A DNA stretch of 43,976 nt, taken from Nitrospira sp. UW-LDO-01. GTDB lineage: Bacteria; Nitrospirota; Nitrospiria; Nitrospirales; Nitrospiraceae. The stretch covers positions 1 through 43,976 of the forward strand of contig NIUT01000122.1 of NCBI GenBank assembly GCA_002254365.1. Reading direction: 5' to 3'. The notes below the pieces were generated by a model. It was not told the origin of the DNA and ran no database searches. It saw nothing but the letters and a program-made list of their open reading frames with translations. Shown here one piece after another: positions 9,996 through 32,533 of this stretch; position 1 is the stretch's first letter; each line of letters begins with the position of its first letter. The position numbers and the translations under genes are program-made.

Positions 9996-11231
9996 ATGAC
10001 AAAGAGTTCAACCAAAGATTCTGTCCAATATCCGATCCTCAGAAATCTTCAGTTCTCACCCATCAAGCAGGGGGAAGATCAGTTGGTCGTGCTGTGGGAC
10101 CCAAGTGGGCTGAGTCAAGAAAAGCTGGTGCTGCCGCTCAACTTCTTTTTTATCGTGCAGCATTTTGATGGAGAACATTCCCTCCTGGATATCGGGGGGG
10201 TGTACTTGAAACGGTTCGGTGAGTTTCTGCTCCCGAGCAAAGTTGAGCAGCTGGTCGCAGATCTGGATGAGAAGCTGTTTCTGGAAGGTCCACGGATTGA
10301 GGCCGCACGGCAACAGGCTCTGGCCGAGTATCGACAACGGCCGTTCCGTCCCGCGGTGTTTGTCGGACGAAGTTATGAAGCGGATGGCGCCAAACTGCGC
10401 AAGCAGATCGACGGATTCTTCACCTCAAGCGAAGGGCCCGATTTCAAGCCATCTGAGAACAAAGGGAAGTTGATCAAAGGGCTCGTGACGCCCACCTACG
10501 ACCTCAAACAAGCAGGACCGGTCTACGCATGGGGCTACAAAGAACTTCAAGAAAGTCAGCAGCCGGACGTCTATGTCATCATCGGGACCGCCCATGCCGG
10601 TCTTGAACATGTGTTTGCCGTGACGGACAAGGATTTTGAAACGCCGTTTGGCCTGATCCCAACGGATCAACAGATTGTGACGCGGCTCAAGGCATTGGTG
10701 CCGGATTGTGTTGACGAAGAGATCGCACACCAGGCTGAACCTGCGATTGAATTCCAGCTGCCGTTTCTTCAGACGAGTGTCAACAAACCCTTCACCATTG
10801 TTCCAATTCTTTCCTCGTTTTCAGCATCCAGCCTGAAAGATGTAACCGTTCAGCATTCCGTGGAGCAATTTCTTACGGCTCTCCGGAATACTATTACTGA
10901 ATCTGGAAAGACAGTCTGCGTGATCGCGGCCGGAGAATTGGCCCATCTTGGTCTGCGCTATGGCGATACTGCACCACCTACCGATTTTTCGTTCCACCGT
11001 TCCATGCAGCGGGACTTAGAAATGCTGAAGCACGTGGAAGAACTCAAGCCTGAGGAATTCGCTGCCTATATTCAGAGAGAAAACGATCAGCGTCGCATTT
11101 CCGGCTTCTCGCCCATCTACTGCCTCTTGCGAGTGATCCAAGCCGAGAAGGGGCAGGTTCTCCGCTACGATCGCGGTATCACCGATCAATATAACTCTAC
11201 GGCGACCTACACCAGCATGGCGTTTTTCTAA
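9996..11231 (+). CDS. MEMO-family protein (AmmeMemoRadiSam system protein B)
   Basis: A 411-residue protein. Residues about 1-105 form an N-terminal winged-helix/PqqD-like domain (LPLNFFFIVQHFDGEHSLLD, F-L-L-P-S-K-V-E-Q-L). Residues about 165-411 are MEMO-like: KGLVTPTYDLKQAGPVYAW, D-V-Y-V-I-I-G-T-A-H-A-G-L near 190-202, F-x-T-P-F-G-L-I-P-T-D, E-x-A-H-Q-A-E-P-A-I-E-F-Q-L-P-F-L near 243-259, and A-A-G-E-L-A-H-L-G near 308-316. MEMO proteins share a fold with class III extradiol dioxygenases, with the metal-ligand histidines partly conserved. The 'Amme' and radical-SAM partners are not in the window. The gene stands alone, about 165 bases after the MITE-like element. Its substrate is unknown. 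Confidence 0.85.
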   Translation: MTKSSTKDSVQYPILRNLQFSPIKQGEDQLVVLWDPSGLSQEKLVLPLNFFFIVQHFDGEHSLLDIGGVYLKRFGEFLLPSKVEQLVADLDEKLFLEGPRIEAARQQALAEYRQRPFRPAVFVGRSYEADGAKLRKQIDGFFTSSEGPDFKPSENKGKLIKGLVTPTYDLKQAGPVYAWGYKELQESQQPDVYVIIGTAHAGLEHVFAVTDKDFETPFGLIPTDQQIVTRLKALVPDCVDEEIAHQAEPAIEFQLPFLQTSVNKPFTIVPILSSFSASSLKDVTVQHSVEQFLTALRNTITESGKTVCVIAAGELAHLGLRYGDTAPPTDFSFHRSMQRDLEMLKHVEELKPEEFAAYIQRENDQRRISGFSPIYCLLRVIQAEKGQVLRYDRGITDQYNSTATYTSMAFF

Positions 11232-11879: not shown

Positions 11880-14800
11880 ATGGGAGTTCTATTTTTTAAA
11901 CCTTTTAGAGGGCTGAGGCGATCAGGCATCGCGCGGATGCTCCAGTCAGTCTTGCTGGCTGGGGGTCTGTTTGCGGCGCCTGGGTTGTTTGCTGCCGAGT
12001 CGGGGGTTGCTCCTCATGGTGGGCATGCGACTCCGGTGGCGATGCCAGGCTGGGCCCAACAGCTGAAGGGGCAGACGGTGGTTGAGAATGCCATCGAAGG
12101 GCGCGCCGACAATGCCCAAAAGATGGAGATGCAGCATCATCGCCTGATGGAGAAGCTCGGACAGCAGGCTCAAAGTGATGCGCAGGTGCAGCAGACGTCC
12201 GGTGCATTCAACAATATGTCGATGATGCACCAGTATATGGGGCAGGATGGGAGCAGCTTCCTGTTGATGACGGATGCAGGAAAGGGTGAACCGGTCCTCA
12301 GCTCGGGAGGGAAGTGCCCTGCCGGCGTGCCGGTAAAACAGTTCGATGTGTCCATGATCAACATCGAAATCACCTTGAATCGTTGGCTCGATTTTTATCC
12401 GGGCTACATGTACGTGTTGACGGAGGATCTCTCCAAGGCTCGTGCAGAGGAAACGAAAAATAAAGAAGCCAGAGAGAAAGATGGGTACGATCCGGGTGCC
12501 GTTACCACCGGATTGCAGGGTGATGTGATTCAGCCGTTGGTCATGCGCGCAAACCCTGGAGATTGCGTGAAGATGACCTTGCGCAATCAGATGGAAGGTG
12601 AGGATGGGAGTCTGTTCATTCAGGCGTCCAGCATGATCGTAAGCTCGTCTGGTAAGCCGGCGACCACCACGAATCCTGAATCGATTGTGGCGCCAGGCAA
12701 GGTGCAAGAATTTGAATGGTATCTTCATCCTCAGATGCAGGAAGGCGTACGTCAGTTCCATTCCTTCAGTCATGACCGTGAGTTGACGGTGTTGGGCCTC
12801 TTCGGGGCGTTCGTTGTCGAGCCGAAGGGTTCTAAGTACGTCGACGCGTTGGGGAGTGGGGGGGCTGCACCTGAAGTGAAGAGCGGCTGGCAGGTCAATA
12901 TTGACAACGGCTCCGGACCTGACTTCCGTGAGTTTGTGCTGTTCTACCATGAGATCGGGGACGAAGCGTTCCGTCCGTTGAACAAGAAGGGCGACTTCCT
13001 GCCTCAACGTGACCCATTGACCGATGCCTATCGTCCAGGCGGTCGCGCGATTAACTATCGCAGTGAGCCGTTTGGGATCGACCAGATGCATCTCCAGCAC
13101 GAGTATTTCGGGTTTGAAGATGAATCGATGGCCTACAGCTCCTATACATTCGGCGACACGCCGACCACGATTGCTCGTGGCTACTTAGGCGATCCAGTGA
13201 AGTGGCGGGTGGTCCATGGTGGTTCCGAAGTGTTCCATTCACACCATCCTCATAGTGGGTCGATCCGGTGGCAGCGGAGCCCAGGCACCGAGCCCAACAA
13301 TCTCTGGGCCATGGGTGTGGATGGGCCCGTGAAGTATCCGATCGTGAGAACGAAGTCGGATCGCGTGGATGTGGAAGTGATCGGTCCATCTGAGGCGTTG
13401 GACCTTGAGCCTGAATGCGGTGGTGGTGGTTGTCAACATTTGGCAGGGGAGTTTCTCTATCACTGCCATGTGGCCCACCATTATGTAGCCGGCATGTGGG
13501 GGTATGGTCGATTCTACAATACGCTTCAAATGGGGGCGGCCCATACCGACAGCATGCCGGATCTCCGTGAGTTGCCGGATCGCATCGGTCGGATGAAGCT
13601 CGGTGTTTCGTCCGATAAGCTGATCGGTACCACGGTTGATTGGTTCGGCAAGACGTTTAAGATTGTCGACAAGGGGCAGAAGACCAACTGGAAGTCTAAC
13701 CCGGTCGTCGTGAACGTCAAGGATTGGGTTGAGATGTTTGTCCCGGCACAAGGAAAGCCGGGCCATACCGATGATGAAAAGGGACAGATCCTGTCCTATG
13801 ATTCAACGGTGTGGGATTGGAAGTGGGACGGAAATATCGCGCGTGGTGAACGTGAAAGTACCGCGCAGAATCCTAAATATACATGGGCAGCCAAGTGGGA
13901 GGACAGCACCAGGCCTGCTATTCTGTTTGATCCAACCACGGCCAAGATGGCGTGGCCATTGTTCAAACCGCACTTCGGCAAGCGTGTGCCGTTCTCAGCA
14001 AACCACAGCGGAGCGCCCTGGTTGGAGCCGATTCACCAGGATGAAAATGGTGAGCGGACCTCCGAGCCAGCCAAGCCGGGTGAGCAGGGCCGATGGAGCC
14101 TCTGCCCCGAAAATGCGAATCGTAAGCACTACAACATCCACTTCGTGCGGATGCCGATTACCCTGGCTAAGAAGCAGGGCAAAGAGCCGGCCATGGTCGA
14201 CAAGGACGGCTTGATCTATGTGCTTCATGAAGAAGAACGTTTGACCAGAGCGAATGACGATCTGAAGCTTCCCGCAGTCATTCGTGCCAACGTGTATGAC
14301 TGTGTGGACGTGCTGCTGACGAGCGAGTGGGATGACGACGACTACACGAATTTCCAGTCATCCAAGATCAACATCCATCCCCACTTTTTCCAGTTCGACA
14401 CGGGGAACTCGGATGGTGTGATCTCAGGGTTTGAATATGAGATGTCAGTCCGGCCGTTCACCATGTGGGGGAAAAAGACCAAGCATGGGTTGCCGGCTCC
14501 GATGGTGGCGAAGCTAGAGGGTGCCGTGAAGGCTGGAGCGAAATCGCTCAAGATCAAGATGGCTCCAGGCGCCACGCCCTTCCATGTCAATACCGAAGTC
14601 ATGGTCGGGATGGATTGTTTAGACAAGGGGAACGATCCGACGGCCTCATTGCCACGGGACAAGAGCTGCCAAGAGGTTGCCCGGATCAAGGAGATCAAGG
14701 GCAATCAGGTGACGTTCTATAAGCCGTTGAAGAATAATCACCCGGCGGGTGATCTGGTATCGCCGGAGTTTGTCCGCTATCGGTGGTGGGTGGATGTAGA

Positions 14801-16823
14801 CATGGGCACTGTGTTCTGGCATGACCATGCATTCGGTGCGACGACCTGGCCGCATGGCGGGTTCGGCGTTACGATCGTGGAGCCCTTCGGATCGACCTAT
14901 CATGATCCGAAGAACGGCAAGTTGGTCTACAGCGGCCCGGTTGCAGACATTCACAGCAACGAACCGATCGGGGCGGGCGTGAGTGGGAGTTTTCGTGAGC
15001 TGATGGTATCGATCCATGACACGGTGCCGCACACCGTGAACGTGATCGAGGCCGGTAATCCTCCAGGACAGCCGGTAGAGGTTGCTCTGGAAGCTGGAAA
15101 GACCGTGTCGTTCCAGATGCCGGAAAAGATCCTGAATGCGCCGAATAAGTACATCAACGGCGGAACGCATACGACCGGCAGCGGCTTCAATTTCCGCGCG
15201 GCTCCGTTTGCACAACGTCTATCCAACAATCCGGATACCTCGAAGCTGTTCAGCAGCGCGATCCATGGAGATCCTGGGACACCGTTGATTCGGGCCTACA
15301 CAGGTGACACATTGGTCGTCCGCCTGTTGCACCAGCTCATGAATGAGTCCCACGTTTGGACGATCTCCGGTCATACGTTCCTCACAGAACGCTATGCGGC
15401 GGATGCCAATCGGAAGAACTCGATTCACGTTGGAATCGCCGAACGGTATGATTTGGTCACAAAGGCAGGCGGATTCCAGGGTATGCCGGGTGACTATATC
15501 CACTTTAATGGTAGAAGTTCCCACTTCGCAGAAGGTGGATGGGGAATCCTTCGGGTACTTGATAAGCAAGTGCCCGATCTGATGCCTTTGCCAAAGGGGA
15601 CCAATCCTTTGAGTATTCCTGCCACGCCGAGCTCAGTCTGCCCGGCGGATGCACCGGTCAAGAACTTCAGTGTGGTGGCATTGGATCGCCCAATGAAGTT
15701 GAATCCGAAAGCGCCGGATGCGATTGAAGTGGACTTCGAGCGGAAGATTGAAATGACCATGCCGGAGGGCAAAATCTTCGCGCTGGAAGGAGAAGCCACG
15801 ACGGTGTCCAGCGGTGCGACACCGCATCCGCTGACGCTACGTGCAAATTTAGGCGACTGTATCAAGGTGAATTTGACGAATAAGATGAAGGAGAGCCGGG
15901 CGTCATTCTTTGCGCCTGGATTGGCCTTTGATCCGAAGGACAGCCAAGGGTTGAACGTCGGTAACAACGGCGGCGACCAGACCATTGGTCCAGGTGAAAA
16001 ACGTCAGTACACCTATTATGCGCATCCGTCGAACAAGGAGACGACCTCCTTGGTGTGGGATGGTGGCAATATCGTCGTCAACCCACGGAACGGGTTGTAT
16101 GGCGCGATCATCATCGGCCCACGTGGCTCACAGTATCGTGATCCTGTGAGCGGTGCAGATGTCTCACAGAAGAACGCCTGGCGGGCGGACGTGATCGTGG
16201 ATACGACGCTCCCAGACAACGTTGGGAAACGGAACTACCGTGACGTGGCCCTCTTCTTCCAAGATGAGGACAACATCATCGGGACGGCATTCATGCCGTA
16301 TGTGCAGAATGTCGCGGGCTTGACGTCGGTGAACTACCGCGCAGAGCCCTACAAGTTCCGAGAAGATCAAGGATGCTCACTCGGGAAGATCTTCCAGCCT
16401 TGTGTCGTCGACAAGCCGGAGGATCCTGTGACGCCGTTGATCGAAGCGCACGCAGGCGACGCGGTCAGGATTCACGTGATCGGCGCCAATAGTGAGCAAA
16501 ACGGGATGTTTGGAGTCGAGGGCCATGAGTGGCCGATCGAGCCGTACATGCCGGGTGCTGATATGATCAGTGTTGTGGAGTACGCTGGTTCTGAAACACT
16601 CGATGTCTTCCTACGTGGCGGTGCGGGTGGTCCGTACCGTCAAGTCGGTGACTTCGTGTGGTCGAACCAACGGTTGCCCTACACGCAGTCCGGTCAGTGG
16701 GGCTATCTCCGAGTATTGCCGGCAGGTGATACCCGGATCCAGCCGCTCGGGGCTATGGGAGCGGCGGTCAAGCGGGCTGAGGTAGCGCCCCAACCGAAAG
16801 CTACTCCGACCGCGATGAAATAG
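11880..16823 (+). CDS. Giant exported multicopper oxidase, MofA-like in size (paralog 1)
   Basis: A 1647-residue secreted protein. The start is ATG 11880, preceded by GGGGAGG with six bases between. A signal peptide covers about residues 1-38 (LQSVLLAGGLFAAPGLFAAES). Copper motifs, by residue: VFHSHHPHSG about 447-456; F-L-Y-H-C-H-V-A-H-H-Y-V-A-G-M-W about 521-536, a canonical H-C-H-x3-H-x4-M type 1/type 3 motif; N-I-H-P-H-F-F-Q-F about 830; V-F-W-H-D-H-A-F-G about 976-984. Together these supply the His pairs for a trinuclear centre plus a type 1 site. The last third repeats the domain layout (PLTLRANLGDCIKVNLTNKM, RDVALFFQDED) but lacks the copper histidines. MofA of Leptothrix, linked to Mn(II) oxidation, has about the same length. 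The substrate here is unproven; metal oxidation, copper detoxification or an electron-transfer role are all possible. A terminator follows. Confidence 0.85.
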   Translation: MGVLFFKPFRGLRRSGIARMLQSVLLAGGLFAAPGLFAAESGVAPHGGHATPVAMPGWAQQLKGQTVVENAIEGRADNAQKMEMQHHRLMEKLGQQAQSDAQVQQTSGAFNNMSMMHQYMGQDGSSFLLMTDAGKGEPVLSSGGKCPAGVPVKQFDVSMINIEITLNRWLDFYPGYMYVLTEDLSKARAEETKNKEAREKDGYDPGAVTTGLQGDVIQPLVMRANPGDCVKMTLRNQMEGEDGSLFIQASSMIVSSSGKPATTTNPESIVAPGKVQEFEWYLHPQMQEGVRQFHSFSHDRELTVLGLFGAFVVEPKGSKYVDALGSGGAAPEVKSGWQVNIDNGSGPDFREFVLFYHEIGDEAFRPLNKKGDFLPQRDPLTDAYRPGGRAINYRSEPFGIDQMHLQHEYFGFEDESMAYSSYTFGDTPTTIARGYLGDPVKWRVVHGGSEVFHSHHPHSGSIRWQRSPGTEPNNLWAMGVDGPVKYPIVRTKSDRVDVEVIGPSEALDLEPECGGGGCQHLAGEFLYHCHVAHHYVAGMWGYGRFYNTLQMGAAHTDSMPDLRELPDRIGRMKLGVSSDKLIGTTVDWFGKTFKIVDKGQKTNWKSNPVVVNVKDWVEMFVPAQGKPGHTDDEKGQILSYDSTVWDWKWDGNIARGERESTAQNPKYTWAAKWEDSTRPAILFDPTTAKMAWPLFKPHFGKRVPFSANHSGAPWLEPIHQDENGERTSEPAKPGEQGRWSLCPENANRKHYNIHFVRMPITLAKKQGKEPAMVDKDGLIYVLHEEERLTRANDDLKLPAVIRANVYDCVDVLLTSEWDDDDYTNFQSSKINIHPHFFQFDTGNSDGVISGFEYEMSVRPFTMWGKKTKHGLPAPMVAKLEGAVKAGAKSLKIKMAPGATPFHVNTEVMVGMDCLDKGNDPTASLPRDKSCQEVARIKEIKGNQVTFYKPLKNNHPAGDLVSPEFVRYRWWVDVDMGTVFWHDHAFGATTWPHGGFGVTIVEPFGSTYHDPKNGKLVYSGPVADIHSNEPIGAGVSGSFRELMVSIHDTVPHTVNVIEAGNPPGQPVEVALEAGKTVSFQMPEKILNAPNKYINGGTHTTGSGFNFRAAPFAQRLSNNPDTSKLFSSAIHGDPGTPLIRAYTGDTLVVRLLHQLMNESHVWTISGHTFLTERYAADANRKNSIHVGIAERYDLVTKAGGFQGMPGDYIHFNGRSSHFAEGGWGILRVLDKQVPDLMPLPKGTNPLSIPATPSSVCPADAPVKNFSVVALDRPMKLNPKAPDAIEVDFERKIEMTMPEGKIFALEGEATTVSSGATPHPLTLRANLGDCIKVNLTNKMKESRASFFAPGLAFDPKDSQGLNVGNNGGDQTIGPGEKRQYTYYAHPSNKETTSLVWDGGNIVVNPRNGLYGAIIIGPRGSQYRDPVSGADVSQKNAWRADVIVDTTLPDNVGKRNYRDVALFFQDEDNIIGTAFMPYVQNVAGLTSVNYRAEPYKFREDQGCSLGKIFQPCVVDKPEDPVTPLIEAHAGDAVRIHVIGANSEQNGMFGVEGHEWPIEPYMPGADMISVVEYAGSETLDVFLRGGAGGPYRQVGDFVWSNQRLPYTQSGQWGYLRVLPAGDTRIQPLGAMGAAVKRAEVAPQPKATPTAMK

Positions 16824-16890: not shown

Positions 16891-16957
16891 GTAGTGATTC
16901 CAGTCCTATCGTGTAGGTTGATTGCGATGGCAAAATCAGGATACACAAGGAGTGAAT

Positions 16958-17896
16958 ATGAACATGCTGACGTGGGGGCGATTCATCATCGGGTTAATCA
17001 TGCTCGCGGGGGGCAGTCAGGCTGCCGCGTACCAAGAATATATGGTTTCAGACGGTGGAAGTATTATGGGGACGGTGTATCTCGGTGGGCAGGTCCCGAA
17101 GCCGAAAGGCTATAATCTCACGACGTTGCCTGATCCCTTCTACTGCGGCCGCATCTCAGACGGACAAGGGTGGCGGATTTTGCAGCCCTTCAATGTGGGA
17201 CTCGGTGGAGAATTTCGAGAAGTCGTGGTGTATCTCGAAGGGGTGGAGAAAGGTAAGCCGTTTGACGAGACGAGTACGCCTCAAGTTGAAGCCAAGGACT
17301 GCTTGTTTCTCCCCTTTACGATGGCGGTGAGAGACGACCAATCAGTGACCGTCGTCAATATGGATCCTGTCATGCACGATATCCAAGCGTATGAAACGTC
17401 GAATCTGGGGGCACGAGTCCTGTTCAATGTTCCGCTACCGATGAATCCAGGACATCCTCGGAACTTTAAAGATCGTAGCGATGCCGCGATGTATCACAAA
17501 CACATGGCCGGTGCTCCCACGAAACAATTGGTGAATCTCAGCAAGGGGCGCAGGATCTTCGTGATGCAGTGCGGCTTTCACGCGTATATGGAGAGTTGGG
17601 GAGTAGCGGTCAACAATCCGTACTTTGCCAAGACGGACGAGGAGGGGCGATTCGCCATCACCAACGTTCCCCCGGGTACCTATAAGTTGGTCGTCTGGCA
17701 TCCCTACGTGAGGACATCCGTTGAGCAAACGATTACGGTGCGTCCAAAAGAGACGATGGAAACGACGCTGATGGTCCAGGCTCCGACGGGTCGCCTCTAT
17801 GCCAATGAGGTCCTAGAACATGACTATGTCCGGTATAATGTGACGGAGGAAGCCCAGAAAGAGATTGATCCAATGATTCAGAAGCAGAAACGGTGA
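16958..17896 (+). CDS. Exported cupredoxin-like protein with C-terminal carboxypeptidase-regulatory-like domain (paralog 1)
   Basis: A 312-residue protein. ATG 16958 is chosen because AAGGAG lies five bases upstream; an upstream in-frame ATG at 16922 lacks this. A signal peptide spans about residues 1-26 (FIIGLIMLAGGSQAAA). Residues about 30-215 form a beta-rich domain with M-D-P-V-M-H-D-I-Q near 136-144 and Q-C-G-F-H-A-Y-M near 204-211. The His plus Cys-x2-His-x3-Met set matches type 1 copper ligands. Residues about 228-265 (GRFAITNVPPGTYKLVVWHP) are a carboxypeptidase-regulatory-like beta-sandwich. The fold recalls 'methylamine utilization protein'-type cupredoxins. It probably passes electrons to or from the preceding oxidase, though a terminator separates the two. 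A close paralog follows oxidase 2. Confidence 0.8.
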   Translation: MNMLTWGRFIIGLIMLAGGSQAAAYQEYMVSDGGSIMGTVYLGGQVPKPKGYNLTTLPDPFYCGRISDGQGWRILQPFNVGLGGEFREVVVYLEGVEKGKPFDETSTPQVEAKDCLFLPFTMAVRDDQSVTVVNMDPVMHDIQAYETSNLGARVLFNVPLPMNPGHPRNFKDRSDAAMYHKHMAGAPTKQLVNLSKGRRIFVMQCGFHAYMESWGVAVNNPYFAKTDEEGRFAITNVPPGTYKLVVWHPYVRTSVEQTITVRPKETMETTLMVQAPTGRLYANEVLEHDYVRYNVTEEAQKEIDPMIQKQKR

Positions 17897-17911
17897 GAGA
17901 AGGTTGGATCG

Positions 17912-18874
17912 ATGCAGGTTGAGGGAGCAGTGGCATCACTCGTCGGTCTCATGCGATGCATCTGGATAATCGTCGTGTGTGGGCTGCTGTCACTCATTGG
18001 TGTCCCGGCGAGGGCCGACCACGAGAGCTCGAAGCAGCCGCAGCTGTGGACGCCACATGATGAAGCCGAGCGGTTGGGGGCAATGGAGGTGCCGGGTGGA
18101 ATGGTATTGGTCCCGGCAGGATCGTTTCTTATGGGGAGTGATCCGCGAAAAGACCGTGCCGCCGGCCCGCAGGAGCAGCCACAGCATGAGGTTTATCTTG
18201 ACACGTTCAGGATCGACCGGTTCGAGGTGTCAAACGTTGAGTATCTTAGATTCGTCCTCGGGACGGGAGCAGATTGGCCGAAGTTCTGGCGAGAGAATCC
18301 ATTTCCAGAAAAGGCAATACTCCATCCCGTGATCAACGTGAGCTGGCGTGAAGCCGATGCTTTTTGCCGGTGGGCCGGTAAACGACTTCCGACTGAGGCC
18401 GAGTGGGAGAAAGCAGCCCGTGGGGTAGACGGTCGGATTTTTCCCTGGGGGAATGAGCCTGCAGGTTGGATCAAGAGTAATATTGCCCACCCTGGGTCGA
18501 AGCGAGGATTCAAGTACCCGCCGCTCGCCAATATCAATCGCTATGACAAAGGCGCCAGTCCGTACGGCGTGTATCAAATGGCCGGTAATGTCAGCGAATG
18601 GGTATCGGATTGGTTTGATCCGGAGTATTACCGGCATGGTCACGACAAGAATCCGCAAGGGCCTACGACCGGAGAACTCAAGGTCTTTCGTGGAGGGTCC
18701 TGGAACGAAGACCCGGAGGTTGCCCGCTCCGCCGGCCGCAATGGTGGTCCACCTGATCGGGAGAGTTACTTGACGGGGTTTCGCTGTGCGAAGTTCGGAG
18801 ATGATAGCAGTGGTGAGGCGTCGACTGTCGATCATGATGGTGTTGTGCAAAAGGCGATGCAGTTTTCCCAGTGA
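17912..18874 (+). CDS. Exported SUMF1/FGE-like domain protein A
   Basis: A 320-residue protein with a hydrophobic export signal at about residues 15-36 (CIWIIVVCGLLSLIGVPARA). The SUMF1 domain follows: G-G-M-V-L-V-P-A-G-S-F-L-M-G-S near 60-74, L-D-T-F-x-I-D-R-F-E-V, K-R-L-P-T-E-A-E-W-E-K-A-A-R-G near 156-170, F-P-W-G, M-A-G-N-V-S-E-W-V-S-D-W near 219-230, F-R-G-G-S-W near 261 and G-F-R-C-A. True formylglycine-generating enzymes have two copper-binding cysteines just after R-G-G-S; here that stretch reads N-E-D-P, so FGE activity is unlikely. It starts 15 bases after the cupredoxin gene. Its fold could serve as a binding scaffold or an oxidoreductase with other residues. Confidence 0.83.
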   Translation: MQVEGAVASLVGLMRCIWIIVVCGLLSLIGVPARADHESSKQPQLWTPHDEAERLGAMEVPGGMVLVPAGSFLMGSDPRKDRAAGPQEQPQHEVYLDTFRIDRFEVSNVEYLRFVLGTGADWPKFWRENPFPEKAILHPVINVSWREADAFCRWAGKRLPTEAEWEKAARGVDGRIFPWGNEPAGWIKSNIAHPGSKRGFKYPPLANINRYDKGASPYGVYQMAGNVSEWVSDWFDPEYYRHGHDKNPQGPTTGELKVFRGGSWNEDPEVARSAGRNGGPPDRESYLTGFRCAKFGDDSSGEASTVDHDGVVQKAMQFSQ

Positions 18875-18923
18875 CACCCGATATGCTGAGGGCGTTCTAC
18901 TATTTGGGGGTTGGGAGGGGATG

Positions 18924-19907
18924 ATGAGTGAAAAAACGAGCAGTACACGGGGTTGGGTATGTCGGACGCTACTCATGATCGGTGCCCTAGCGGTCATGTC
19001 CCAGACCGCAGGAGCCCTAGATACCCAAGACATCACGGTCGATTGGACCGAAGCCGGCAAGAAGCTTGCCGCTGAGCGAGTCGCGAATTGGAAAACGAAG
19101 GCAGAAATGGTGATGGTGCCAGCGGGAGAGTTTCTGATGGGCAGCGATAAGAAGACGGATCGGCTTGCCTATCGGAGTGAGATCCCTCAGCATCGTGTCT
19201 ACCTTGATGCCTTCGAGATCGGCAAGTACGAAGTGACGGCACTCGAATATTTGAAGTTCGTGCTGGCCACCAACCGCTCCCCGCAACTTGACTGGCGGTA
19301 CGATGGAGGCAACTTCCAAGACTCGATGGCTCACCATCCGATCATGCACGTGACTTGGTATGATGCCGATGCCTACTGTAAGTGGGCTGGTCAGCGCCTA
19401 CCGACGGAAGCTGAGTGGGAGAAAGCGGCACGTGGGTCAGATGGTCGGCTCTTTCCTTGGGGGCAGGAGTATGCGGGACCAACACGGGCCAATTTCGGGC
19501 GGACAGGTCTTTCCGGGCCCGTTCGTGATCGCCCTGAGCGATTACTGCTCTACCCGCCTATTATTTCAGTCGATAAGTATGAGAATGCCTTGAGTCCCTA
19601 CGGACTGTATCAGACCATCGGCAACGTTGCTGAGTGGGTCGCTGATTGGTATAACCCGGACTACTACAAGACAGCGCCTGATCGAAACCCTCAAGGGCCT
19701 GAAGCTGGAACACAAAAAGCGTTTCGCGGCGGTGGATGGATGGATAGTACCACCACGATGAGGGTGGCGATGAGGAACGGGACCGATCCGAACACGAAGA
19801 TTAATTGGTTGGGATTCCGTTGCGCAAGGTCGGTGTCTGAGAATCAATTATCGATCAAGACTTCTCATGTACGACCTGCATTGTCGCTTCTGGAAGCAGA
19901 GCACTGA
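18924..19907 (+). CDS. Exported SUMF1/FGE-like domain protein B
   Basis: A 327-residue protein starting at ATG 18924, five bases after GGGAGG; another ATG sits at 18921. Its signal peptide is about residues 12-30 (LLMIGALAVMSQTAGA). Then come W-T-E-A-G-K-K-L-A-A-E-R and the SUMF1 domain: M-V-P-A-G-E-F-L-M-G-S, R-L-P-T-E-A-E-W-E-K-A-A-R-G, I-G-N-V-A-E-W-V-A-D-W, F-R-G-G-G-W and G-F-R-C-A-R. The FGE catalytic cysteines are absent (M-D-S-T at that place). It is most like protein D at 30008-30919, sharing the block F-G-R-T-G-L-S-G-P-V-R-D-R-P-E and most of the domain. This points to duplication inside the cluster. It sits 49 bases after protein A. Confidence 0.83.
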   Translation: MSEKTSSTRGWVCRTLLMIGALAVMSQTAGALDTQDITVDWTEAGKKLAAERVANWKTKAEMVMVPAGEFLMGSDKKTDRLAYRSEIPQHRVYLDAFEIGKYEVTALEYLKFVLATNRSPQLDWRYDGGNFQDSMAHHPIMHVTWYDADAYCKWAGQRLPTEAEWEKAARGSDGRLFPWGQEYAGPTRANFGRTGLSGPVRDRPERLLLYPPIISVDKYENALSPYGLYQTIGNVAEWVADWYNPDYYKTAPDRNPQGPEAGTQKAFRGGGWMDSTTTMRVAMRNGTDPNTKINWLGFRCARSVSENQLSIKTSHVRPALSLLEAEH

Positions 19908-19956
19908 GGCATAGCGTTGTGTGATATTCTCACACGCCGATTCACTGTGCCGATTA

Positions 19957-19984
19957 AGCGAGGAACGTATAGCGAGGAACGTAT
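19957..19984 (+). repeat. 14-base tandem duplication carrying a duplicated ribosome binding site
   Basis: AGCGAGGAACGTAT occurs twice head to tail (19957-19970 and 19971-19984) directly before ATG 19985. Each copy has GAGGA; the second lies six bases from the start codon, so two Shine-Dalgarno sequences precede one gene. Confidence 0.8.
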
Positions 19985-20647
19985 ATGGTTGTCATTGGGA
20001 TGGCTTCACACATGACTCGTGCCGCGTTACGAGATTTCCGGCTTATCCTCTTCTTACTTGCCGGCCTGCTTTCGTCGAGCATTCCGTGCGTGAGTGACGC
20101 AGCACCAGGTGGAAAGACCGAGGTCCTGCCTGTGGAGAAGGCTGCGCCTGCGGCAGTGGTCATCGAGGCAGCCGGAACTGAGCAGGAATTGAGGGGCCAG
20201 ATGAGAACAAAGAACGGTGTGGTGGAATTGGCGAGTGGTGCAGTTCGGTTTTCGCTGGCGCCCACAGGAAGTTATGGCTTTATCGAGCCCAAGCAACTCG
20301 GGTTGGCATTAGTGACACAGAGCCCGGATCTGATGGTGGAGCGGATATCCTCCTCAACTGGATCCTACGAGATTCATAAGCTTGGTGATGGAAGCGGATT
20401 GCTGGTCGGTTTCGTGGGGAAGGAGGTGGTTGCTCAGATCAAGCCGAGCGAGCGACCGAAGAGCGTGCGGCTTTCGTTGTATTCGAATCCTTTCGGTGCC
20501 GCGATGACTATCGCAGCAGTTCCGTTAACGAAACTCATGGTTGACCAAATGCCACGCGCGACTGAGTCGCGCAAGCGAGATGGGCCTGTCGTGCTAGACA
20601 TGGATTTGCAAGGCACCGCAAACAGAAAATCACCTGTCGCAAAGTAG
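19985..20647 (+). CDS. Exported protein of unknown function
   Basis: A 220-residue protein. A basic N-region is followed by a hydrophobic segment (about residues 19-36, LILFLLAGLLSSSIPCVSDA). The cysteine in S-S-I-P-C could be a lipobox-like site, but the fit is weak. The rest is a beta-rich domain with GVVELASGAVRFSLAPTGSY, LMVERISSSTGSYEIHKLGD and SVRLSLYSNPFGAAMTIAAV, and a hydrophilic C-terminal tail. I recognise no family. It lies after the first SUMF1 pair and before the second oxidase promoter, so it closes the first half of the copper cluster. A tandem 14-base duplication doubles its ribosome binding site. Confidence 0.72.
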   Translation: MVVIGMASHMTRAALRDFRLILFLLAGLLSSSIPCVSDAAPGGKTEVLPVEKAAPAAVVIEAAGTEQELRGQMRTKNGVVELASGAVRFSLAPTGSYGFIEPKQLGLALVTQSPDLMVERISSSTGSYEIHKLGDGSGLLVGFVGKEVVAQIKPSERPKSVRLSLYSNPFGAAMTIAAVPLTKLMVDQMPRATESRKRDGPVVLDMDLQGTANRKSPVAK

Positions 20648-20682
20648 TGGGTGGAGTTGGAGTGATAGCTGCGACGAAAGTC

Positions 20683-20712
20683 TTGACACTCCATATAAAG
20701 TTTAAGTATGGT
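20683..20712 (+). promoter_or_regulatory. Probable promoter of the second multicopper oxidase gene
   Basis: TTGACA at 20683-20688 and TATGGT at 20707-20712 are 18 bases apart, four of six matches at -10. The leader to ATG 20879 would be about 160 bases and is AT-rich, with no other strong motif. Confidence 0.5.
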
Positions 20713-20878
20713 GCATCATTGAGTATTTTTTACAAATGTTAATTCAAGGTGTGACTTATCTGAGAGGTTTTCGTCCTATATCAAAAACGTCTTCGTTCTG
20801 AATATCCTAAAATATAAAAGAGTAGGCCAATTTAGTGGTCGCTCTGTCCACTTTCCAACTTAGCAAGGAGGTCGGTCC

Positions 20879-23800
20879 ATGCTTGGTTTCGGTTCACCTT
20901 ACAATAGAGTCTTGCGCGGGCTCGCTGGAATAGCATTTCTAGCGATACCGGCAGTGGCGACTGCCGAGAGTTCATCACACGTCGCGATGAATCATCAGTT
21001 GCCGGCTTGGGCTGAACAGCTCAAGGGTCAGACCATCGTTGAAGACGCCATGTCTGGTCAGGCTAACCGAGCTGCGATGGTTGAACAGCAGCACCAGCGC
21101 ATCATGGAGCATATGTCCAAGGATCCGCAAGTGCAGGCGGTCAATACCGGTATGTACAACACCTCCGCCATGATGCATCAGTACGGAGCGGGCGGGCAGG
21201 ATCTATTGCTCATGTCGGATCCTCGCGCAGAACCAGTAGCCTCGACCCCAGGCGGTCGGTGTCCAGCCACTGCGCCTGTGAAGCAATACAATGTCTCCAC
21301 GATAAACGTCGAGATCACGCTTAATCAGTGGCTCGATTTTTATCCGGGCTACATGTACGTCTTGGACGAAGATATCGATAAGGTGCGAGCTGAAGAAACC
21401 AAGAACAAGGAAGCACGGGAAAAAGAGGGGTTTGATCCAGGGGCTGTGATTCCCGGGGTGCAGGCCCAGTGGATTCAGCCTTTGACGATCCGTGCGAATC
21501 AGGGCGATTGTCTGAAGATTAAGCTAAGCAATAAGTTGGAGGGTGGCGAGGAAGTCAGTCTCCATATCCACGGTTCGTCGATGGTCGTGAGTAAGACAGG
21601 AGCGGCGGCCACCACGAGTAACGCTGACGCTATCGCTGCCAAGGACAAGCCCGTGGAGTTGGAATGGTACATCCATCCCGACCTGCAGGAGGGCGTTCGT
21701 CAGTTTCATACATATAGCAACGATCGTGAGTTGACGGTTATGGGCATGTTCGGTTCTTTTGTCGTGGAACCCAAAGGCTCCACCTACTGGGAACCGCTCG
21801 GAACCGGAGATGCGACGCCGGCCACCAGTGGCTGGCAGGTCATGATCAAGAACGGGACCGGTCCTGACTTCCGTGAATTTGTGTTGTATTACCACGAAGT
21901 CGGCGACGAAGCCTTCCGTCCACTCAATAAGAAGGGTGATTTCTTGCCGCAACGTGATCCGTTGACGGATACGTACCGTCCAGGCGGCCGCGCGATCAAC
22001 TATCGAAGCGAGCCGTTCGGGATCAATAACATGCATTTACAACATGAATACTTTGGGTTTGAAGATGAGTCGATGGGGTATAGTTCCTATACCTTCGGCG
22101 ATGCCTCTCCAACGATCCCTCGCTCCTACATGGGTGATCCTGCGAAGTTTCGTCTTGTTCATGGTGGATCGGAAGTCTTCCATAGCCATCATCCGCATGG
22201 TGGGTCGATCCGATGGCCACGGAGCCCGCGAGCCATCGATGACATGAATCTCTGGGCCACAGCGATGAATGGTCCGGTCAAGTATCCGGTCATCCGCGCG
22301 AAGACTGATCGAGTTGATGTGGAAGTTGTCGGTCCGTCCGAGGCGTTGGACCTGGAGACAGAGTGCGGCTCCGGGCTTTGCCAACAGCTCGCCGGTGATT
22401 TCCTGTTCCATTGCCACGTGGCGCATCATTACGTTTCAGGTATGTGGGGTTACTGGCGTGTGTACAACACTATTCAGCAGGGCGAGATGCGGAACGATGT
22501 GATGCCAGATCTGCGCGAACTACCGGATCGCAAAGGCCGTATCAAAACACCGATTTCATCGGACAAGCTCATCGGTCAAACCGTTGATTGGTTCGGCACT
22601 CAGTTTAAGATCATCGAGAAGGGGAAGAGTAACTGGAAGGGCAATCCCGCCACGATTACGATCAAGGATTGGGTGGCGATGCAGTTGCCGCCGGCGGGGA
22701 AGCCTGGCCATAAGGAAGACGAGAAGGGGCAGATTGTCTCCTACGATGCTACGGTGTTGGATTGGGCTTGGGAAGGCAATCGGGCGATGAGCGAAAAGGA
22801 AAGCACGATTGTTAACCCGAAGTATGTCTCAAGCCATCCGGGCAAGCGGCATCCACTCATGTTTGAGCCGTTGACAGGGAAGGTGGCGTGGCCCCATCTT
22901 ACCCCGCACTTTGGAAAACGGGTCATGTTTTCTCCGAATCACGTCGGGGCGCCATGGTTGGAGATGATCCGTCGTGACGACAACGGAGAGGAGAGTCTCG
23001 ATCAAGCCAAGCCAGGCGAGCAAGGGAATTGGAGCCTTTGTCCGGTGAATGCCGGACGGAAGAATTACAATGTCCATTTCATCAAGGTGCCGATCAAGAT
23101 TGCCAAGGCGCAAGGGAACGAGCCGGCCGTTATTGATCAGAATGGCTTGATCTACGTGTTGCACGAAGAGGAAGCAGCGGTTCGTGCCAACGACGATCTC
23201 AAGTATCCATTGGTCGTACGAGGGAACATCTATGACTGCGTGGATTGGACATTGACTAGTGAGTGGGATGATGATGATTACACGAATTTCCAGGCGTCAA
23301 AAATTAACACACACTGGCACTTCCTCCAGTTTGATAATCAGGCCTCGGACGGTGTAATCACGGGCTTCTCCTATGAACAGTCCGTTCGTCCGTTCACGAT
23401 GCTCGAGAAGAAGAATCCAAAGGGGCTTCCCGCTCCGATGAATACGGTGTTGACTTCGGCCGTAAAGAAGGGTGCTAAAACAATCTCGGTGAAGAATGCC
23501 AAACAGTATCACGTCGGAACCTTGATCATGGTCGGCGCCGATAATGTGAAGGGGAATGAGATTGCACGCATCATAGCCATCAAAGGCGATCAGCTTACGT
23601 TGTCCAAGGGGTTAAAAAACGATCACCCTGCCAAGGACATTGTGACGGTCGAGTTTGTTCGTCAGCGTTTCTGGGTGGATGCGGATGTGGGAACCGTTTT
23701 TTGGCATGACCACGCGTTCGGGGCGACGACCTGGCCACATGGCGGGTTTGGGACCTTTATCGCGGAGCCTGTCGGGTCAACCTATCATGATCCTACGACA

Positions 23801-25738: not shown

Positions 25739-25776
25739 AGGGGAGTCGTGCTGTTAGCACGGCTCCCCTGTTTTTT
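25739..25776 (+). terminator. Rho-independent terminator after oxidase 2
   Basis: AGGGGAGTCGTGCT (25739-25752) pairs with AGCACGGCTCCCCT (25756-25769), one G-U pair, around a three-base loop. It is followed by G and six T (25771-25776). The stem shares its core with the hairpin after oxidase 1. Confidence 0.88.
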
Positions 25777-26021: not shown

Positions 26022-26945
26022 TTGGGCACAAGACGGATAATGATCGCCTTTTGTTCTGGAATCCTCACGTTGTTGCTGGGACTTGGCTCTGTGTATTCCT
26101 ATGATGTGATAGACGTGGAGCATGGGGGTACAATTGAAGGTACGATTATACTCGATGGAGTGGTGCCGGAACCAAAAGGGTTCAATCTCATTACCTTCCC
26201 AGACCCAATGTATTGTGGGCGTATTTCCAACGGGCGTGGGTGGCGCTTGCTTCATGATTTTGTCGTCAGCCGTCAGGGCGGATTGAAGGACGCCATCGTG
26301 TTGCTTGAAGGGATTGAAGCCGGGAAACCCTTTGATGTATCAGTGCCCTTGATAGAAGCGCGTGACTGTATGTTTTATCCGTTTATGACGATTGTTCGTA
26401 ACGGGCACGCTGTTGAGGTCATTAATATGGACCCTGTCATGCATGACATTCAGGGCTATGAGACGTCGCCGGAGGCTGGTGCGCGTGTATTATTCAATAC
26501 GCCTCTCATCATGAACCATCAGCATCATCGAGGCGATCTGCACGCCATGCATAATCATGCGCCAGGTAAGTCCTTGATCGGACCGATCTATCTGAACAAG
26601 GGTCGACGGACGTTCTACATGCAGTGTGGCTTTCATGCCTACATGGAAAGCTGGGCGATGGCTGTGAACAATCCCTACTATGCTGTCACAGATGCGGAAG
26701 GAAAGTTTGTAATTGACGGTATTCCGCCTGGTACGTATCAGTTGGTGGTGTGGCATCCGCAGACAGGCCCTGGCACGACGAAATTTGTTGTGGTGCAGCC
26801 AGATGGAAAATTGGTCGAACAGCTATCCTTGCCGGCCCCAAAGGGGAATCGAACTCCGTATAAAGTCATGGACAATCCTCGGTTTGGCCTTCAGTCCCTT
26901 GGGTATAGCATCGATATCCGACCGTTGGTTGAAAGTCAGCGGTAG
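26022..26945 (+). CDS. Exported cupredoxin-like protein with C-terminal carboxypeptidase-regulatory-like domain (paralog 2)
   Basis: A 307-residue paralog of the protein at 16958. I choose TTG 26022 because AAGGAG is six bases before it; an ATG at 26040 lacks such spacing. The signal peptide is about residues 7-27 (MIAFCSGILTLLLGLGSVYS). The copper-ligand candidates are H in V-M-H-D-I-Q (about 139) and Q-C-G-F-H-A-Y-M (about 200-207). Between them is a histidine-rich loop (NHQHHRGDLHAMHNHAPG, about 166-183) that could bind metal and is more His-rich than in paralog 1. The C-terminal beta-sandwich has GKFVIDGIPPGTYQLVVWHP. It lies after oxidase 2 and its terminator and probably starts the operon with the LolA-like and HEAT genes. 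Confidence 0.8.
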   Translation: MGTRRIMIAFCSGILTLLLGLGSVYSYDVIDVEHGGTIEGTIILDGVVPEPKGFNLITFPDPMYCGRISNGRGWRLLHDFVVSRQGGLKDAIVLLEGIEAGKPFDVSVPLIEARDCMFYPFMTIVRNGHAVEVINMDPVMHDIQGYETSPEAGARVLFNTPLIMNHQHHRGDLHAMHNHAPGKSLIGPIYLNKGRRTFYMQCGFHAYMESWAMAVNNPYYAVTDAEGKFVIDGIPPGTYQLVVWHPQTGPGTTKFVVVQPDGKLVEQLSLPAPKGNRTPYKVMDNPRFGLQSLGYSIDIRPLVESQR

Positions 26946-29031: not shown

Positions 29032-29877
29032 ATGTTGATTCGATGTATGACCTTTTCAATCATGTTCGGCCTCGTTCTCGGTCTCGCGCTTTCCTTTGCC
29101 GAAGATAGAGTTTTATTCAATGAAACTCAGACGCCAACGAGTAAGGATGGGACACCGACGGTACTAGTTCCTGCCGGCCCATTTCCCATGGGGGTTCCAC
29201 CAGGAGATCGTGATGGGGGACGGGATGAGTATCCACGTCACGAGGTTTTCTTGGATTCGTTCTTGATCGATCAATTTGAAGTGACGAACGGTCGATATAT
29301 CGAGTTTGTCAAAAGCACGGGCCATCGTGTTCCACAGAACCAGACAAATCCCACGAGGAATCTATGGCAAGGCGACAGCATCACGGAGTCAGTTGCTGAG
29401 CGTCCTGTGATCAATGTTGATTGGTTTGATGCGGACGCTTACTGCAAATGGGCCGGCAAGCGACTACCCACGGAAGCTGAGTGGGAAAAAGCAGCAAAAG
29501 GGACATCCGACCGACGGTTCGTCTGGGGGAATGTTGAGCCGACTGCAAAGCATTTGAATTATAACCAGCGGTGGATCGGCGAAAAGACACTCATGCCGGT
29601 CGGAAGTTATGAAGCGGGGAAAAGTCCTTATGGTGCGTATGACATGGCCGGCAACGTATGGGAGTGGGTGAATGATTGGTATGATGCTCGGTACTATGAG
29701 AAAAGTCCTGAGAGGAATCCGAAAGGTCCTGAAACCGGGTTGAAGAAAGTCATTCGAGGAGCTGGTTGGCAAAATGAGACACCAACGGTCCGAATCTTTA
29801 CCCGTGTCGAGAGTGACCCGACCATGCGCAATGAGTCCACAGGGTTCCGATGTGCCACAGAGGTCGGGAGGAAATAG
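29032..29877 (+). CDS. Exported SUMF1/FGE-like domain protein C
   Basis: A 281-residue protein starting at ATG 29032, with AAGGAG eight bases upstream. Its signal peptide is about residues 1-23 (FSIMFGLVLGLALSFA). The SUMF1 domain shows V-P-A-G-P-F-P-M-G-V, H-E-V-F-L-D-S-F-L-I-D-Q-F-E-V-T-N, K-R-L-P-T-E-A-E-W-E-K-A-A-K-G, F-V-W-G-N, M-A-G-N-V-W-E-W-V-N-D-W and I-R-G-A-G-W, ending in G-F-R-C-A. At the FGE cysteine positions it has Q-N-E-T. It has the compact layout of canonical SUMF1 domains, without the linker of proteins B and D. It ends the plus-strand arm of the cluster and faces protein D on the other strand. Confidence 0.83.
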   Translation: MLIRCMTFSIMFGLVLGLALSFAEDRVLFNETQTPTSKDGTPTVLVPAGPFPMGVPPGDRDGGRDEYPRHEVFLDSFLIDQFEVTNGRYIEFVKSTGHRVPQNQTNPTRNLWQGDSITESVAERPVINVDWFDADAYCKWAGKRLPTEAEWEKAAKGTSDRRFVWGNVEPTAKHLNYNQRWIGEKTLMPVGSYEAGKSPYGAYDMAGNVWEWVNDWYDARYYEKSPERNPKGPETGLKKVIRGAGWQNETPTVRIFTRVESDPTMRNESTGFRCATEVGRK

Positions 29878-30007: not shown

Positions 30008-30919
30008 CTATTGTGTGGAATCCTGTGAGGGTTGTACGTCCCGTGCGCAGCGAAAGCCGAGCCAGTTCATCTTCGTATTTGGATCAGTCCCATTCCGTTG
30101 AGCCACTCGTACACTTGGTGTGCTGTCGATCCAGCTTCCGCCCCGAAAACTCCGTTGAGTCCCCTTCTCCGGTCCTTTCGGGTTGCGATTCGGTGCTGTG
30201 GCATAGTACTTCGGGTCGTACCAGTCTGCTACCCATTCGGCTACATTGCCGGACATCTGGAAGACTCCGTATGGGCTGACAGCATTGTCATACTTGTCAA
30301 CGGAAATAATCGGTGGATAGAGCAGGAGTCGTTCTGGACGATCCCGCACGGGACCAGACAGGCCTGTCCGGCCGAAGTTTGACCTTGACAGTCCTGCGAT
30401 CTGATTTCCCCATGGATACAGCCGTCCATCCTCTCCACGGGCAGCTTTCTCCCATTCAGCTTCCGTGGGGAGTCGCTTACCAGCCCACTTACAATAGGCT
30501 TCGGCATCGGTCCAGGACACGTGCATGACCGGATGGCTCGTCATGGTTTCCTGAAAATTTCCCCCGTCGTATTGCCAATCGATGAGCGGAGGGAGATCAT
30601 GCGACAGGATAAATTTCAAAAATTGGACGGTCGTCACTTCAAACCGATCGATTTCGTAGGCGTCAAGATAGACGGTTTTCTGTGGCAGTTCGGCTTGATA
30701 CGCGTTCCGATCGGCCCTCTTGTCGCTTCCCATGAGAAACTCCCCGGCTGGGATCAGGACCATTTCGTCATGAGCCGGCAGCCTGGCCCGTTCAGCCGCA
30801 AGCTTCTTCCCTTCTGGAGTCCATTGTCGGACGACATCGGCCACATCCAGTGCGTATGCAGCACTTCCGGTGATGACTCCTATCAACGCAACGCCTACAA
30901 TAACTCCTAATGCGTGCAC
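30008..30919 (-). CDS. Exported SUMF1/FGE-like domain protein D
   Basis: A 303-residue protein with signal peptide at about residues 1-24 (GVIVGVALIGVITGSAAYA). Then follows the linker W-T-P-E-G-K-K-L-A-A-E-R shared with protein B, and the SUMF1 domain with L-I-P-A-G-E-F-L-M-G-S, R-L-P-T-E-A-E-W-E-K-A-A-R-G, Y-P-W-G-N, S-G-N-V-A-E-W-V-A-D-W, F-R-G-G-S-W and G-F-R-C-A-R. The FGE cysteines are replaced (I-D-S-T). It is the closest relative of protein B, 11 kb away on the other strand, suggesting inverted duplication. It is the last gene of a minus-strand set with the LolA-like protein 2 (33-base gap) and SUMF1 protein E. Confidence 0.83.
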   Translation of the reverse strand: MHALGVIVGVALIGVITGSAAYALDVADVVRQWTPEGKKLAAERARLPAHDEMVLIPAGEFLMGSDKRADRNAYQAELPQKTVYLDAYEIDRFEVTTVQFLKFILSHDLPPLIDWQYDGGNFQETMTSHPVMHVSWTDAEAYCKWAGKRLPTEAEWEKAARGEDGRLYPWGNQIAGLSRSNFGRTGLSGPVRDRPERLLLYPPIISVDKYDNAVSPYGVFQMSGNVAEWVADWYDPKYYATAPNRNPKGPEKGTQRSFRGGSWIDSTPSVRVAQRNGTDPNTKMNWLGFRCARDVQPSQDSTQ

Positions 30920-31633: not shown

Positions 31634-32533
31634 CTAGGGGGACGCCGTGACAGATGACCGTGCACATCGAAACCCAATTGTGGCGGAACGTTGATGGGGA
31701 GATGAGCCGCCCCTTGTTGCCGTTCTGAGCATCACTCGCTTACTTTTCCACGAACCTCCACGAACGCTTTTGTAGCGTCCGGTCGTCGGACCGGGGGGAT
31801 TGCGATCCGGCATGTAGGCATAATAGTCGAACCCAAACCAGTCATGGACCCACTCTGCCACGTTTCCCGCCATATGGTGGAGCCCATAGGGACTCTTGCC
31901 CTCTTCGTGAGAATCGACCGTCGCGAGAATGGGAATTTCATGGACGTGATGTTGTCCGAACATGGCCAGTTTTGGGTTGGGCATCGCGTCGCCCCACGGA
32001 TAGAGGTTACCCTCTGGCCCTCGCGCGGCCTTCTCCCATTCGGCTTCTGTGGGCAGTCTCGCATGCTTGACGGAGCAAAACTTCTCAGCTTCATCCCATG
32101 TCACGTACAGAGCGGGCCACCGTGTCAGAGCGTCGTCCTGGATTGAATGGACAGTGATGACATGCCATAGCAGTTGCTGCAACTCGTTCGAGGGGTAAGT
32201 TTTCTGTTGGTATAAGAAGGCCAGGTATTCCCCGAGACTCACCTCATCGCGATCGAGTTCATATGCGTCCAACCAGACGCGGTGTTGAGGAAGTTCGGTA
32301 TCATCAAACTGTGTCCACCTCCCATAAGGATCACTATCAACTCGTTTACTGCCGATCAAAAATGGACCGGCTGGAATAGCCACAATCGGTGAAGACTGGG
32401 ACAGGTTTGCGATAGCAGTGAGATGACGGGCTAGTTCGGGAGAAGGTTTTGATCCTGCCTGCACGATATCGGGGTGCCACAGAATGACGAGGAGGGAAAG
32501 AACAGTTGCGGTCCATCTACGACAATCCAACAT
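31634..32533 (-). CDS. Exported SUMF1/FGE-like domain protein E
   Basis: A 299-residue protein with signal peptide at about residues 8-26 (ATVLSLLVILWHPDIVQA). The SUMF1 domain is more divergent: V-A-I-P-A-G-P-F-L-I-G-S, H-R-V-W-L-D-A-Y-E-L-D-R-D-E-V, A-R-L-P-T-E-A-E-W-E-K-A-A-R-G, Y-P-W-G, M-A-G-N-V-A-E-W-V-H-D-W and V-R-G-G-S-W, then G-F-R-C-A-R. No FGE-type cysteine pair is present (K-S-K-R). As the first gene of the minus-strand trio it probably carries the promoter in the 330-base gap to 32864. I found no convincing -35/-10 pair there. Confidence 0.82.
   Translation of the reverse strand: MLDCRRWTATVLSLLVILWHPDIVQAGSKPSPELARHLTAIANLSQSSPIVAIPAGPFLIGSKRVDSDPYGRWTQFDDTELPQHRVWLDAYELDRDEVSLGEYLAFLYQQKTYPSNELQQLLWHVITVHSIQDDALTRWPALYVTWDEAEKFCSVKHARLPTEAEWEKAARGPEGNLYPWGDAMPNPKLAMFGQHHVHEIPILATVDSHEEGKSPYGLHHMAGNVAEWVHDWFGFDYYAYMPDRNPPGPTTGRYKSVRGGSWKSKRVMLRTATRGGSSPHQRSATIGFRCARSSVTASP

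Follow-up and report, generated by a model that had tools for sequence, protein, structure and literature searches.

The window, by which we mean the whole analysed stretch of 43,976 nucleotides, is part of a Nitrospira genome (contig C122; the assembly comprises 3.9 Mb in 230 contigs). It contains two genes, P1 and P2, for giant multicopper oxidases that share 66% identity, each with a gene of the Cup family behind it (Table 1). The longest open reading frame of P1 opens with TTG, but the true start is likely the ATG at 11880, and the N-terminus, judged by eye, is a probable signal peptide. CupA and CupB are probably exported. A third paralog (L002) lies on contig C98 at 16971-21650; it is 75% identical to P2 and has one in-frame TAA. 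Five genes of the FGE/SUMF1-like family (PF03781) flank the oxidases, at 17912-18874, 18786-19907, 29032-29877, 30008-30919 and 31634-32533, the last two on the minus strand, and several of them are syntenic across Nitrospira. A Memo-like protein (AmmeMemoRadiSam system protein B) is encoded at 9996-11231, a gene that also precedes the P1 oxidase in several other Nitrospira loci.

Table 1. Oxidase genes, Cup genes, and the domains and copper motifs of the oxidases, in window coordinates; P1 residues are counted from the start of the longest open reading frame.
Feature	Residues	Positions	Strand	Remarks
P1		11817..16823	+	six-domain multicopper oxidase, 1668 aa; longest ORF, TTG start
P1 D1	~167-378	12315..12950	+	approximate limits
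P1 D2	~379-577	12951..13547	+	putative type 1 Cu ligands and half of the trinuclear ligands
P1 motif 3	474-479	13236..13253	+	HSHHPH; direct reading
P1 motif 4	549-560	13461..13496	+	HCHVAHHYVAGM; direct reading
P1 D2-D3 linker	~578-762	13548..14102	+	
P1 D3	~763-1072	14103..15032	+	putative other half of the trinuclear ligands
P1 motif 1	854-856	14376..14384	+	HPH; direct reading
P1 D3 hairpin insert	881-984 (~100)	14457..14768	+	between motifs 1 and 2
P1 motif 2	1001-1004	14817..14828	+	WHDH; direct reading
P1 D4	~1073-1265	15033..15611	+	copper site lost, HCH Cys replaced by Phe
P1 D5-D6	~1275-1640	15639..16736	+	copperless two-domain laccase-like unit
CupA		16922..17896	+	directly 3′ of P1; conserved His...Cys-x2-His-x2-Met and CarboxypepD_reg domain
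P2		20879..25711	+	six-domain multicopper oxidase paralogous to P1, 1610 aa
P2 motif 3	435-440	22181..22198	+	HSHHPH; direct reading
P2 motif 4	511-522	22409..22444	+	HCHVAHHYVSGM; direct reading
P2 motif 1	812-814	23312..23320	+	HWH (not HPH); direct reading
P2 motif 2	942-945	23702..23713	+	WHDH; direct reading
CupB		26022..26945	+	same family as CupA, 3′ of P2

Motif order and domain architecture

Along the chains of both P1 and P2 the copper motifs come in the order HxxHxH (motif 3), HCHxxxHxxxxM (motif 4), HxH (motif 1) and WHDH (motif 2), which does not fit the canonical order of three-domain oxidases (HxH, WxHxH, HxxHxH, HCH). The sequence-only reading, in which HSHHPH and HCH precede HPH and WHDH in both paralogs, was accurate as to order and coordinates, with HWH as the form of motif 1 in P2; its residue numbers fall about 24 short of those in the longest open reading frame because it counted from an inner start, and the ATG at codon 22 gives nearly equal numbers. 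Motif 4 of the two proteins follows the common pattern HCHVAHHYVxGM. The order cannot be a matter of chance, since each motif histidine and the cysteine show 99-100% conservation among 89 aligned homologs and the order 3-4-1-2 is kept in all 19 distant relatives that were read (16 from Nitrospirota and one each from Bacillota, Actinomycetota and Haloarchaea). The last three are plasmid-borne proteins: 1228 aa in Priestia, 1772 aa in Streptomyces and 1480 aa in Haladaptatus. By homology, H474, C550, H555 and M560 of P1 would be ligands of the type 1 copper, and H477, H479, H549 and H551 would be ligands of the trinuclear centre.

The chain is made up of three tandem two-domain units, and thus of six cupredoxin domains. 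When the units of P1 (residues 162-580, 760-1270 and 1270-1640) were compared with one another by profile-profile alignment using hhalign, probabilities of 99.2, 99.7 and 99.8 were obtained, whereas the D2-D3 linker, used as a control, gave no meaningful match; a Pfam search with the linker also found nothing. All three units have the same orientation and can be aligned from end to end, and each of them starts with CP-x5-K and carries a conserved cysteine pair.

AlphaFold models were built from 41-row alignments for P1 residues 160-1262 (D1-D4) and 740-1668 (D3-D6). Their mean pLDDT values are 59.4 and 63.2, with most of D2 below 50, so that the fold matches described here speak for fold and domain number rather than for copper-site geometry; this low confidence probably reflects the input relatives, which are mostly 65-93% identical. 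The D1-D4 model matched residues 1-798 of MnxG (9bxa) with a Z score of 23.8 (625 residues aligned, rmsd 4.0 Å), the next match scoring 15.1, and the D3-D6 model matched residues 425-1216 with a Z score of 21.3 (651 residues aligned, rmsd 4.0 Å), followed by ceruloplasmin at 19.5. Two-domain laccases matched D5-D6 with a Z score of 13.4 and D1-D2 with a Z score of about 12.6. The number of cupredoxin domains, which the earlier reading had left to structure prediction, is given as six by the hhalign repeat together with the fold matches spanning 9bxa 1-798 and 425-1216.

MnxG as counterpart and the probable copper centre between D2 and D3

The best sequence match in PDB is likewise MnxG 9bxa, which oxidises Mn(II) as part of the Mnx complex of Bacillus sp. 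PL-12 (E value 8.9e-84 with P1 and 2.6e-105 with the family profile as query). The alignment takes in every motif: H474, H477 and H479 of P1 pair with residues 281, 284 and 286, the HCH motif with 334-345, H854 and H856 with 529 and 531, and H1002 and H1004 with 575 and 577. The deposited MnxG carries H340A, and this position aligns with H555 of P1, the predicted histidine ligand of the type 1 copper. MnxG shares with P1 and P2 the six cupredoxin domains and the motif order, and likewise has one type 1 copper site in D2 and trinuclear ligands in D2 and D3. It differs from them in length (1227 residues versus 1610-1668) and in the D3 hairpin insert, which MnxG lacks; it lies beside the trinuclear half-site in P1 and at the corresponding place in P2, and some relatives have a longer one. 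The spacing between motifs 1 and 2 is 148 residues in P1, 131 in P2 and 204 in a relative (L129), but only 46-47 in MnxG and in the Priestia and Haladaptatus proteins. A Pfam search with the insert of P1 gave no match.

Two-domain laccases such as Streptomyces SLAC and Ssl1 (4w1t) are separate chains that assemble into trimers with three copper centres, and each trinuclear centre is shared by domain 2 of a subunit and domain 1 of its neighbour. Their units share the fold with those of P1, which is a single chain with, as it appears, a single centre. A fused chain would have three possible interfaces, D2/D3, D4/D5 and D6/D1, of which only D2/D3 still has the ligands of a copper site. D2 bears motifs 3 and 4, which would supply the type 1 copper ligands and one half of those of the trinuclear centre, and D3 bears motifs 1 and 2; with the motifs so placed, the chain reads 3-4-1-2 and a permutation is unnecessary. 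Homology and conservation suggest that all four motifs come together in a single copper cluster at D2/D3. We regard it as highly probable that P1 and P2 are secreted bacterial six-domain oxidases of MnxG type, in which a two-domain laccase unit is triplicated and the copper centre lies between D2 and D3. The proposal of a multi-cupredoxin protein whose trinuclear centre would form between middle domains is supported by MnxG homology, the three-fold repeat and conservation, the middle domains being D2 and D3 of six.

The view that this motif order is unusual does not hold, as 3-4-1-2 is the standard layout of bacterial six-domain oxidases. In a 2013 phylogeny, the trinuclear site lies between D2 and D3 and the sole mononuclear (blue copper) site lies in D2, with residual ligands elsewhere, in all of those analysed (PMC3600357). 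Leptothrix MCOs, Pseudomonas MnxG and Geobacter GSU1252 (1217-2681 aa) are described there with this D2/D3 trinuclear site and D2-only blue site; it is by this published description that they are likened to the Nitrospira pair, which falls under the NCBIfam MnxG cut-off. As far as the passages drawn on here go, the D2/D3 layout in PMC3600357, the PDB entry of MnxG (9bxa), the oxidase in PMC3578206 and the MnxG-encoding bins in PMC12070406 make the earlier finding a correct rediscovery of a layout already published. The published architecture accounts for the motif order, so that the pair no longer looks like a new class of enzyme.

Putative function and the Cup proteins

The putative function in Nitrospira is most likely extracytoplasmic oxidation of a metal (Mn(II)-type) with reduction of O2. 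Outside the cytoplasm, electrons from the metal substrate would enter at the type 1 copper of D2 and O2 would be reduced to water at the D2/D3 centre, with D1 and D4-D6 serving as scaffold. The likeliest substrate is Mn(II), with Fe(II) and Cu(I) as further possibilities. The substrate is not transferable from MnxG by orthology, because P1 and P2 score only 104 and 140 bits with the MnxG equivalog model NF041487, far under its curated cut-off of 3100 bits; no protein anywhere in the genome exceeds that cut-off. The Mnx complex requires MnxE and MnxF (PMC5622069), whereas no MnxE/MnxF-like pair was recognised among the neighbours of P1 and P2, which comprise Cup and FGE-like genes besides unknown ones. 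Work on rapid sand filters suspects Nitrospira of manganese oxidation, and MnxG is reported to be encoded in Nitrospira bins from sand filters (PMC12070406).

Among near relatives, the oxidase gene occurs in 29 of 30 that are of high quality and in 38 of all 39. In a phylum-wide sample of 198 genomes its family is found in 72, mostly in the same class, Nitrospiria. The chromosome of Ca. Nitrospira defluvii encodes close relatives of P2 (85%) and P1 (88%). According to the part of a 2013 account that is cited here, Nitrospina has a periplasmic oxidase resembling the Bacillus Mn oxidase, which is conserved in Ca. N. defluvii (PMC3578206); this part makes no mention of motif order or domain layout. 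The same part proposes for the homologous oxidase of both organisms the production of Mn(III) against reactive oxygen species. Such a protective role, as opposed to detoxification or energy gain, would use the same active site and agrees with the near universal presence among near relatives, but the class-wide distribution suits several roles, and we hold it to be a tentative and rather unlikely reading. These multi-copy giants, near universal in these nitrifiers and so far putative in function, still matter for that reason.

Another possibility, compatible with an MnxG-kind oxidase with its centre at D2/D3, is that CupA and CupB are the physiological electron partners and that the oxidase works within an electron-transfer chain or a dedicated copper-protein complex, and not as a free-standing Mn oxidase. 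Of the 67 Nitrospira loci with enough flanking sequence, 55 have a Cup gene no more than 1 kb downstream of the oxidase, and such a gene also adjoins the oxidase in several deep-branching Nitrospiria; the His, Cys, His and Met residues are conserved at 99-100% in 122 Cup sequences. Moreover, according to the part of PMC3578206 cited above, the nitrite-oxidoreductase gene regions in Ca. N. defluvii and Nitrospina also contain a multicopper oxidase gene and genes for cupredoxin-like proteins. On the other hand, the remaining 12 loci have no Cup neighbour within 1 kb, and just past the stop codon of P2 there is a strong terminator-like hairpin of 14 pairs with a T-rich tail (25739-25769), which makes co-transcription of P2 and CupB doubtful. 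A PDB search with the Cup family matched only the carboxypeptidase-regulatory-like part, so that Cup is recognised as a cupredoxin solely by its ligand pattern. CupA is a possible copper partner of P1, but a partnership of this kind as the physiological role of both Cup proteins seems unlikely to us. It is quite improbable that the oxidase and Cup form a copper electron-transfer module conserved across Nitrospiria, from which substrate electrons may exit via Cup toward the respiratory chain; if it were so, the electrons of the metal substrate would not go only to O2 at D2/D3.

Empty copper sites and other domain arrangements

All twelve possible ligand slots were read in 21 aligned proteins. 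Motifs 3 and 4 of D2 and motifs 1 and 2 of D3 are intact in every one of them, and the sites of D4-D6 have decayed. The cysteine of the HCH motif is present in D2 only, its place being taken by Phe in D4 and lacking Cys in D6, so that the type 1 copper ligands are confined to D2. No His/Cys copper set was found in the slots of D5 and D6 in any member read, and D6 contained neither HxxHxH nor HCH in any of them. The C-terminal third, which the sequence-only reading had taken to be free of copper ligands, does have empty slots in D5 and D6, though conserved histidines are still present there (H1545, H1553 and H1570). D1 has taken different courses: P1 has lost its trinuclear half-site (FIQASS/FHSFSH), P2 retains LHIHGSS, and deep-branching relatives (L122-L128) keep both HxH motifs of the dead D1/D6 trinuclear site (LHIHG and FHSHV) with a ligandless D6. 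Deep-branching relatives also keep HxxH in D4.

The same succession of motifs would result if a three-domain laccase had undergone circular permutation and been joined to additional cupredoxin domains, 3-4-1-2 being formally a circular permutation of 1-2-3-4. This origin is, however, very improbable, and we reject it: the three two-domain units are co-directional by hhalign and the relic ligands of D1 and D4 sit where a triplicated two-domain ancestor predicts them; in addition, the whole-chain matches are MnxG, then ceruloplasmin and factor V/VIII, ahead of three-domain laccases. Ceruloplasmin likewise has six cupredoxin domains in one chain, but its trinuclear centre sits between D1 and D6 (PMC3600357), unlike the putative D2/D3 centre of P1 and P2. 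An oxidase of this type, with its centre at D1/D6, is rejected as very improbable, because the D6 ligands it requires (HxxHxH and HCH) are absent from all members read and HxH is lost from D1 of P1. In its favour, ceruloplasmin ranks with the best fold matches, and HxH persists in D1 of P2 and of deep-branching relatives, some of which also keep HSH. The leftovers in D1 and D4 of deep-branching relatives are as expected for relics of an ancestor with copper at further interfaces, and those at the D1 interface, now dead, support the idea that the ancestral six-domain protein had two or more copper centres.
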